Source: Opitutaceae bacterium (GTDB lineage Bacteria; Verrucomicrobiota; Verrucomicrobiia; Opitutales; Opitutaceae). From it: a stretch of DNA of 57,579 bases. The first letter of the stretch is position 1. Every line of letters starts with the position of its first letter. Made by a program: the position numbers and the translations under genes. Below are positions 30,853 to 46,147 of the stretch, piece by piece. The notes under the pieces are model-generated. The model was given only the letters and a program-made list of their open reading frames with translations. It did not search any database and was not told where the DNA came from. The DNA lies in assembly GCA_003164715.1 (NCBI GenBank), contig PLTZ01000024.1, positions 1 to 57,579 on the forward strand, written 5' to 3'.

Positions 30853-30904
30853 CTTGCGATTGGGCGTTGGTCCGGGTTCTTCTTCTCCTCTTTTCAAACC
30901 GCAA

Positions 30905-32443
30905 ATGCCGCAGACCATCGCAGTCCTCGATTTCGGGTCGCAATACACGCAGGTGATCGCACGGCGCATCCGCGAGTGCCAAGTCTACTCGAAGATCTAC
31001 CATTTCTCGACGCCCGCGGAGCGGCTGCGCGCGGACGGCGTGATCGGGATCGTCCTTTCAGGCGGGCCGAGCTCGGTCTTCTCGGCGAATGCTCCGATAC
31101 CGGACCCGAAGATCTTCGAGATCGGGGTGCCGGTCCTCGGGATCTGCTACGGCCTGCAGCTCATGGGCCACATGCTGGGCGGCAAGGTCTCAAGAGGGGA
31201 GCGGCGGGAATATGGACACGGGACCCTGACCGTACACCGCCGCGGACGGCTGTTCGCGGGCCTGCCGAGGAAGCTTCGCGTCTGGAATTCCCACGGCGAC
31301 AAGCTGATGAAGCTGCCGCCCGGGTTCACCACCATCGGCAGGACGGAGAACTCGCCCTTCGCGGTCATCGAGAACTACCGGAAGGGGTTCTACGGGATCC
31401 AGTTCCACCCCGAGGTCTTCCACACCGAGCGGGGCATCGAGGTCCTCCTCAACTTTCTGGCCGGGGTCTGCCGCGCGAGGCAGGACTGGACGACCAAGGA
31501 CTTCATCGAGCACGCGGTGGGGGAGATCCGCGAGGCCGTGGGCAGTTCCCGCGTGATCCTCGGCCTTTCCGGGGGGGTCGACTCCTCGGTGGCCGCGGCG
31601 CTCATCCACAGGGCGATCGGCAGCCAGCTCACGTGCGTGTTCGTCGACAACGGGCTCCTCAGGAAGGACGAGCGGGCGACCGTCGAGTCGCTCTACAAAA
31701 GGCACTTCAAGATAGACCTGAGGGTCGTCGACTCCTCGGCCCTGTTCCTACGCATGCTCAAGGGCGTCGAGGAGCCCGAGAAGAAGCGCAAGATCATCGG
31801 CAAGACCTTCATCGAGGTGTTCGAGAAGTCCCTTAAGAAGATAGGGCGCGCCGACTTTCTCGCTCAGGGCACGCTTTACCCCGACATCATCGAAAGCGTG
31901 GCGATAGGCGACAATCCGGCCGCCCTCATCAAGAGCCACCACAACGTCGGCGGGCTGCCCGCCCGCATGAAGCTGAAGCTGCTCGAGCCGCTCAGGGAGC
32001 TCTTCAAGGACGAGGTCCGACGGGTGGGCAGCGCGCTCGGCCTGCCGCGGGAGGTCGTCTGGCGCCAGCCGTTCCCCGGGCCCGGCCTAGGCGTCCGGGT
32101 GATCGGCCCGATCACGGAGAGCAACCTCGAGATCCTCCGCTCGGCAGACGCGATCCTCCAGGAGGAGATGATGTCGAGCGGGTGGTACTGGAAGGTCTGG
32201 CAGTCGTTCTGCGTCTTTCTCCCGGTCAAGTCGGTCGGCGTGGTGGGGGACGAGCGCAACTACGCCTACGTCATCGCGCTGCGGATCGTGGAGAGCACGG
32301 ACGCGATGACGGCCGACTGGACCCGGCTTCCCTACGACCTCCTGCAGAAGATCTCGGGAAGGATCACCAACGAGGTGAGGGGGGTCTCGCGGGTGGTTTT
32401 CGACGTGAGCTCGAAGCCCCCCGCCACCATCGAGTGGGAGTGA
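30905..32443 (+). CDS. guaA: GMP synthase (glutamine-hydrolysing)
   Basis: The 512-residue enzyme converts XMP to GMP using ATP and glutamine. An N-terminal class I glutaminase domain has C81 ([10 protein letters not shown]), H168 and E170. Next comes the ATP pyrophosphatase domain with P-loop SGGVDS (222-227) and the C-terminal dimerisation domain. The ATG at 30905 gives the family start ([13 protein letters not shown]). A TTG at 30854 in the same frame would add 17 unrelated residues and directly follow the zinc-ribbon gene stop. Confidence 0.98.
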
Positions 32444-45016: not shown

Positions 45017-46147
45017 ATGGCAAGTCACTTTCAATTGCTCGGGAAGGACGCGACAACCGCCGCCCGACGCGGGCGGCTCGCAACGCTCCATGGCGATGTC
45101 GAGACGCCGGTCTTCATGCCGGTCGGCACGCAGGGCACGGTGAAGGCCGTCACACCGGTCCAGCTGAGGGAGATCGGCGCGCAGATCATCCTCGGGAACA
45201 CGTACCACCTGAACTTGAGGCCCGGAAGCGAACTCATCCGCGACCTGGGCGGCCTGCACCGCTTCATGGGCTGGGACGGGCCGATCCTCACCGACAGCGG
45301 CGGCTTCCAGGTGTTCAGCCTCGCGAAGCTGCGCACGATCGGCGACGACGGCGTTTCCTTCCAGTCTCACCTGGACGGCGCCGCCCTGTTCCTCGGCCCG
45401 GGGGAGGTCATGGGCATCCAGGCCAACCTCGGCTCCGACATCGCCATGGTCCTCGACGAGTGCCCACCGTGGCCGGTCGACAGGGACGCCTGCGCGCTCG
45501 CGTGCGCGCGCAGCCTGCGCTGGGCGCGCCGCTGCCGGGAGATCGCCGAGGGGAGCGGATTCCTGGCGTCGGGCCACCACGTGTTCGCGATCGCGCAGGG
45601 GTCCACCTACGACGACTTGAGGCGCGAGGCCGCCGAGGCGCTTTCGGCGCTTGATTTCTCGGGCTACGCCGTCGGTGGGGTCAGCGTGGGCGAGCCCGAG
45701 GCCGAGATGCTCAAGCAGGTGGGGGCGACGACTCCGTTCCTGCCCGCGGACAAGCCCCGCTACACCATGGGGCTCGGCACCCCCCCGCAGATCCTCAGGA
45801 TGGTGGCGCTCGGCGTCGACATGTTCGACTGCGTCCTGCCAACCCGCGTCGCGCGCAACGGCCTGGCGTTCACGCCGCAGGGCCCGATCAACTTGAGAAA
45901 CGAGAAGTTCCGAGACGACGGCCGGCCGCTCGTGGAGGGCCTGGGCAACTACACGTGCCGCAATTTCTCCCGGGCCTACCTGCGGCACCTCTTCGCGGCC
46001 GGGGAGATGCTGGGCGGCACCCTCCTGACGATCCACAACCTCCACTTCTTCCTCGACCTGATGGGGCAAGCCCGCAACCACGTCGAGGCGGGCGACTTCG
46101 GGCCCTGGCACCAGGGCTGGATCCGGCGCTACGAGGGGTCCGATTGA
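45017..46147 (+). CDS. tgt: tRNA-guanine transglycosylase with an altered zinc site
   Basis: The 376-residue TIM barrel exchanges guanine 34 for preQ1 in tRNAs with GUN anticodons, a step in queuosine synthesis. D93 (TDSGGFQVFS) and the nucleophile D271 (FDCVLPTRVARNG) are present. The structural zinc site, E. coli ECDCYTC plus a later His, reads GLGNYTC (308-314). The first two Cys are replaced by L309 and N311, while C314 and H340 (TIHNLHF) remain. The flanking sequence is intact. A 9-nt-loop hairpin (46159-46166/46176-46183) lies 12 nt after the stop. Confidence 0.97.
   Translation: MASHFQLLGKDATTAARRGRLATLHGDVETPVFMPVGTQGTVKAVTPVQLREIGAQIILGNTYHLNLRPGSELIRDLGGLHRFMGWDGPILTDSGGFQVFSLAKLRTIGDDGVSFQSHLDGAALFLGPGEVMGIQANLGSDIAMVLDECPPWPVDRDACALACARSLRWARRCREIAEGSGFLASGHHVFAIAQGSTYDDLRREAAEALSALDFSGYAVGGVSVGEPEAEMLKQVGATTPFLPADKPRYTMGLGTPPQILRMVALGVDMFDCVLPTRVARNGLAFTPQGPINLRNEKFRDDGRPLVEGLGNYTCRNFSRAYLRHLFAAGEMLGGTLLTIHNLHFFLDLMGQARNHVEAGDFGPWHQGWIRRYEGSD

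Follow-up and report, generated by a model that had tools for sequence, protein, structure and literature searches.

The window, by which we mean the whole 57,579-nt stretch of DNA that was analysed, contains one gene for bacterial tRNA-guanine transglycosylase (Tgt). The question raised by this gene is whether such an enzyme can work when two of its four zinc ligands are gone and, if it can, what holds its zinc subdomain in place. In the partial texts consulted, TGT is stated to need zinc for activity (PMC9508795), the zinc domain is named a hallmark of TGTs (PMC6165067) and the residues of the zinc site are termed highly conserved (PMC4425180). The product of the gene matches PF01702 with an E value of 7.4e-150 (Pfam) and, with 459.8 bits, lies above the TIGR00430 equivalog cut-off of 306.75 (NCBIfam). 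The gene and the positions that align with the zinc ligands of Z. mobilis Tgt (ligand numbers refer to a chain of 386 residues) are as follows:

45017-46147, + strand: tgt, bacterial tRNA-guanine(34) transglycosylase, predicted zinc-free variant; ORF of 376 aa (PF01702, TIGR00430)
45938-45958, + strand: former zinc turn G308-L309-G310-N311-Y312-T313-C314, aligned with CHCAVC of Z. mobilis Tgt
45941-45943, + strand: codon of L309, aligned with Z. mobilis Cys318
45947-45949, + strand: codon of N311, aligned with Z. mobilis Cys320
45956-45958, + strand: codon of C314, aligned with Z. mobilis Cys323
46034-46036, + strand: codon of H340, the fourth ligand position, kept, aligned with Z. mobilis His349

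As can be seen, L309, N311, C314 and H340 stand in place of the CxCxxC...H zinc site. This is how the original prediction had read the protein, and both the translation of the ORF and the alignment with Z. mobilis Tgt bear it out; the span then given, 45938-45958, covers the correct site but starts one codon early, at G308. Judged by its sequence, the protein is filed here as a zinc-free variant and not as a typical zinc Tgt.

A total of 57 genomes (the one that carries the window and those of its genus, family and order) were searched, and a Tgt (PF01702) match was obtained in 51. The standard Tgt lacks the first and the second cysteine in 36/36 family genomes with a match, the window's own genome counted, and all 36 have Asn at position 311 and His at position 340. 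The third cysteine (C314) is retained in 26 of the 36 and is elsewhere Ala, Ser, Thr or Asn. The three best GTDB relatives of the window protein are 78-82% identical to it. Relatives with the full site in the same flanks, which had been named as the mark of an assembly error or a recent mutation, are not seen in the family, where every genome with a match shares the loss. A sequencing or assembly error, in favour of which no points were found, is refuted by these relatives as the cause of the double cysteine loss, and its probability is practically nil. The double loss runs through the whole sampled family and is no recent mutation.

The 51 genomes yielded 58 rows, of which 47 are zinc-free, 10 are zinc-bearing and one (L057) is without the zinc region. 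Six of the zinc-bearing rows represent a second Tgt, located in an ORF of 689-757 aa, and the remaining four (L051-L054) are divergent Tgts of order members with genomes of 0.9-1.9 Mb. A QueA match is absent from these four genomes (G042, G045, G048 and G050, the last being only 64% complete). A second Tgt gene with the full motif, whose existence was to be checked according to the original prediction, is present in five of the 36 family genomes (ORFs of 705-757 aa). For the window's own genome this possibility was rejected by a search of the assembly (98.79% complete), in which no second Tgt was found. The alignment of Tgt across the phylum, proposed at the same time, revealed that the loss is common to the family and to most of the order members read and that it is repeated elsewhere; the original prediction contains neither point.

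In the Verrucomicrobiota sample, 101 of 106 genomes had a Tgt match, giving 107 rows (79 CCCH and 28 non-CCCH). The non-CCCH rows come from the window's family, order and class, the class members belonging mostly to family f22, placed by the tree together with Akkermansiaceae. In the sample of Bacteroidota, the phylum of the Shiella genome (L131), a match was found in 69 of 70 genomes, with 16 CCCH and 53 zinc-free Tgts (47 tabulated rows, the centre genome and five, L303-L307, read by eye). The Tgt of L130, from Balneolaceae, is also zinc-free. Removal of duplicates and of two short fragments (L058 and an off-frame part of L064) left 296 distinct sequences, drawn mainly from Verrucomicrobiota and Bacteroidota: 165 zinc-bearing, 130 zinc-free and one undetermined. 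L195 was excluded as a repeat of the Tgt found in the L131 genome, L303-L307 stand outside the 296, and the partial matches G026:C410, G008:C142 and G145:C54 are not among the rows. The CxCxxC...H site is not universal among Tgts, being missing in 130 of the 296 distinct rows. This zinc-free class must be visible to anyone aligning Bacteroidota Tgts; no description of zinc-free Tgts was found in the titles or abstract openings of the literature searched.

The replacements differ between groups. Members of the window's order mostly have hydrophobic-x-Asn-x-x-Cys, and one Bacteroidota group has, separately, Phe-x-Asn-x-x-Cys; Phe-Pro-Ser is found in the group with Balneolaceae and x-His-Pro in Akkermansiaceae, and some relatives have lost three or all four zinc ligands. 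For the two trees, the 296 rows were thinned by identity to sets of 245 and 90. On the 245-row tree, which was computed without the site columns and rooted on Bacillus, a minimum of 10 changes is required, all of them losses, with no regains. Four of these losses are single rows, one of which (L055) has an in-frame TGA in the match. The 90-row mixture-model tree requires seven changes, at least four of them forced by starred branches, and on this tree one clade for all zinc-free rows is rejected (p-AU 4.12e-44). Both are single-protein trees, 33 of 87 inner branches are open on the 90-row tree, and lateral transfer could lower the loss counts; four to ten losses in the sample would be the honest range. 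The window protein is a known enzyme in a zinc-free form that has arisen repeatedly.

The catalytic aspartates and the segment with dimer hot-spot equivalents are located as follows:

45293-45295, + strand: D93, catalytic (Z. mobilis Asp102), invariant in 165 zinc-bearing and 130 zinc-free rows
45827-45829, + strand: D271, catalytic nucleophile (Z. mobilis Asp280), invariant in 165 zinc-bearing and 130 zinc-free rows
45965-45988, + strand: F317-H324, holding the dimer hot-spot equivalents F317, Y321 and H324 (Z. mobilis Trp326, Tyr330 and His333)

D93 and D271 are intact, as the original prediction had claimed, and neither varies in rows of either class. Equivalents of D102, D280, D156 and Q203 are present in 130/130 zinc-free rows. 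The preQ1 pocket positions Asp156, Gln203, Gly230, Val233, Glu235 and Met260, whose roles we in part assume, correspond to D147, Q194, G221, V224, E226 and M251 of the window protein, all of them identical, and catalytic and pocket residues are equally conserved in the 130 distinct zinc-free and the 165 zinc-bearing rows. Comparison of tgt with its counterparts in ten congeners gives a dN/dS of ~0.08-0.17 in nine cases and saturation in the tenth, and the gene is under purifying selection.

Profile matches reveal that the window's genome also encodes QueA, QueG, QueF and the transporter Vut_1, which we take to be of the COG1738 type. With the QueC profile a single match (E 6.2e-4) was obtained, which passed the cut-off only when joined with its neighbours; we read the ORF in which it lies, at 30854-32443, as encoding GuaA on account of its sequence, so that the profile search yielded no true QueC for the genome. 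Since QueF and Vut_1 are present and a true QueC was not found, we infer that the base is preQ1, either taken up as such or formed by QueF from preQ0 that the cell imports. This gene content suggests salvage of preQ0/preQ1 rather than de novo synthesis. The preQ1 on which QueA and QueG act has already been placed in tRNA by Tgt (PMC11130926, partial text), and the likely route would lead from import of preQ0 or preQ1, through QueF if needed, to Tgt, QueA and QueG. In this route, Tgt, with no zinc ion bound, would put preQ1 in the place of guanine 34 in tRNAs with a GUN anticodon.

All but one of the 36 family genomes that encode a zinc-free Tgt also have QueA (35/36), the exception being the congener G002. 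In the G043 genome, 28 bases separate the profile match of a zinc-free Tgt (L050) from that of QueA, both being on one strand. Akkermansiaceae and some Bacteroides are described as typically able to synthesise Q (PMC11130926, partial text), a statement that we take as a genomic inference. Because the window's genome combines a single Tgt with QueA, QueG, QueF and the transporter, and because tgt is under purifying selection, a zinc-free working enzyme is the most likely reading: the window protein is very probably a working bacterial Tgt that inserts preQ1 without zinc. The impression recorded in the original prediction, that the enzyme looks active, is indirectly supported by the same data.

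It could be argued instead that the gene is decaying, or that its product is no transglycosylase at all, queuosine being absent or the base being inserted by another enzyme. The residues that are gone are, after all, ones termed highly conserved (PMC4425180, partial text), and four order members (G041, G052, G053 and G056, with completeness of 80, 50, 95 and 100%) have a QueA match and no PF01702 match, so QueA alone is no proof of a working Tgt. However, the low dN/dS and the catalytic residues retained in every zinc-free row make a decaying tgt very unlikely; moreover, no other Tgt that might insert the base was found in the genome, which does have QueA and QueG. A further possibility, raised in the original prediction, is that the enzyme works but that loss of the zinc site altered dimer formation or the base used. 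The zinc subdomain does hold dimer-interface residues (PMC4425180 and PMC5395182, partial texts), among which Phe92, Trp326, Tyr330 and His333 form the hot-spot cluster (PMC5395182, partial text), and the window protein has Val222 in the place of Leu231 of Z. mobilis. Yet the hot-spot residues are retained here as F83, F317, Y321 and H324, and in the zinc-free rows the Tyr330 equivalent is kept in 126/130 (the four exceptions have Ala) and the His333 equivalent in 129/130. Val at position 222 is likewise present in 75 of 165 zinc-bearing rows, the preQ1-pocket residues are kept, and QueA, QueG and QueF in the genome indicate preQ1. Neither the altered dimer nor the altered base choice is borne out, and there is very little chance that either occurred; the retained hot-spot residues are compatible with a window Tgt homodimer and give no support for a change.

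Four zinc-free Tgts from one genus of family f22, in the same class (L210, L212, L220 and L239), have Ala for the hot-spot Tyr330 and Phe after His333. The dimer interface of these Tgts may really be different.

The original prediction reasoned that zinc cannot be bound in the ordinary way and that the subdomain must be held differently, and the family-wide loss of ligand positions lends this view indirect support. In the 44-tip clade of the window protein, parsimony requires at least 11 changes at C314 and at least two at N311, and none at H340. Among the 15 tips in which C314 is missing, 11 have a turn that is shorter by one residue; of the 29 that retain C314, none does. On this evidence, C314 is dispensable too. 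Position 340 is His in 165/165 CCC rows and either His (96 rows) or Gln (34 rows) among the 130 zinc-free ones; the equivalent of residue 309 in zinc-free rows is mostly Leu or Phe, with Gly in 17 rows. A lead to a residue that may compensate for zinc is Phe344, which was spotted by eye and is absent among the 15 columns listed in the loss-branch count:

46046-46048, + strand: F344, one helical turn past H340; Phe in 129 of 130 zinc-free rows vs 74 of 165 zinc-bearing rows

The column that comes first in the loss-branch count is Asn292 (10/10 losses, with a share of 0.26 of the zinc-bearing branches). Asn292 was already present in the parent at 10/10 losses, which sit in neighbouring lineages, and as a compensating residue it is a lead only. 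An independent-pairs test for compensating residues had four to five usable pairs per column, too few for significance, and no column among those listed was significant.

An AlphaFold2 model, based on an alignment of the window protein with 52 of 80 GTDB loci, has a pLDDT of 94.2 overall and of 95-98 in the blocks of residues 301-340; compared with Z. mobilis Tgt (1pud), it gives a Z of 55.6 and an rmsd of 1.4 A over 370 residues. The model, which is blind to metal, shows that the sequence fits the Tgt fold as predicted. No zinc-free relative with a structure was recognised among 55 PDB sequences (E <= 1e-5), which presumably come from Z. mobilis, human or mouse, Thermotoga, an archaeon and an E. 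coli-like enzyme (10fa, 10fb), the zinc site being read in the PDB alignments of 6ygl, 1ozm, 5n6f, 1y5v, 10fb and 10fa. Conservation points to a turn, once tied by zinc to the C-terminal helix, that would now be held by packing and hydrogen bonds. Packing would be provided by the residue at the first cysteine position, mostly Leu, Phe or another hydrophobic one, together with Phe344, and hydrogen bonds by Asn311 and His/Gln340, Asn311 being the likely partner of His/Gln340 in the family. The subdomain would thereby still present the dimer surface, and the hydrogen-bonding role of His/Gln340 would outlive the metal.

C314 and H340 are both present in the window Tgt and in 26/36 family genomes, and a metal might still be bound through them with the help of new ligands from the protein's own chain, water or the partner subunit. 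Such a residual site is disfavoured because C314 has changed at least 11 times in the clade, with the turn often shorter where it was lost, and H340 has never changed. In addition, position 310 is Gly in the window Tgt and variable elsewhere, and Gln is found at position 340 in independent lineages. We consider a bound metal quite improbable. An explanation that is compatible with a zinc-free working Tgt and concerns the cause of the loss is zinc sparing, the swapping of zinc proteins for zinc-free forms under scarcity. Replacement of zinc proteins by zinc-free paralogues is a known strategy, and the loss of the Tgt site is fixed in large clades. On the other hand, two neighbours of tgt in the window retain their zinc motifs, the zinc ribbon (PF22811) of NrdR and the SEC-C motif (PF02810) of SecA, and this weighs slightly against the idea that zinc is being saved throughout. 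The window's genome is without a paired zinc form of Tgt, and in some relatives a zinc-bearing second Tgt stands beside the zinc-free one. Zinc sparing is thus an unlikely cause.

Returning to a Tgt that works without zinc, it is possible, though we would not count on it, that zinc is a dispensable staple of the enzyme, dropped four to ten times in the sample with the His/Gln hydrogen-bond anchor kept each time and only in permissive backgrounds (residues such as Asn292 and Phe344). If this is true, the queuosine exchange step in zinc-free lineages would be independent of zinc supply. Tgts predicted to be unable to form the zinc site are those of the window's family, most of the order members read, Akkermansiaceae and most of the sampled Bacteroidota. 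Such natural variants make the role of Tgt zinc directly testable and are relevant to the connections that have been proposed between queuosine and the supply of metals. They also make the cysteine motif an unsafe criterion for calling a Tgt functional or dead.

The second Tgt, found in ten Verrucomicrobiota genomes (L039, L044, L046-L049, L245, L257, L264 and L265) in ORFs of 677-757 aa, was analysed by domain scan in L046, the sole one of the ten scanned, and proved to be a fusion:

L046:1213-3303, - strand: fused Tgt with PF01702 and the MnmC-like methyltransferase domain PF05430

The fused Tgt shares the PF01702 domain and the catalytic aspartates with the window Tgt, and the two types co-occur in some genomes. 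Unlike the window Tgt, the second Tgts have an intact zinc motif (10/10), and the arginines that align with positions 277 and 280 of the window protein, invariant elsewhere and presumably tRNA-binding, are replaced by Gln in 8/10 and 9/10, respectively; PF05430 (in L046) is a further difference. An aminomethyl group at position 34 is what MnmC methylates, and preQ1 has such a group; by analogy, the fused second Tgt might methylate preQ1, or it might act on other RNAs.

Compared with the Tgts of Z. mobilis and E. coli (TIGR00430), the window Tgt has the same predicted fold, catalytic aspartates, preQ1 pocket and hot-spot positions, and its genome has QueA and QueG, but two of the four zinc ligands are gone. 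The nearest parallel is bacterial GluRS, which turned out to need neither zinc nor the zinc subdomain itself (PMC4381286, partial text). GluRS is a different enzyme, and its case was shown by experiment, whereas that of Tgt is drawn from sequence alone; the likeness is that the structural zinc subdomain of a tRNA enzyme would, in Tgt as in zinc-free GluRS, work without zinc in many bacteria (PMC4381286, partial text).
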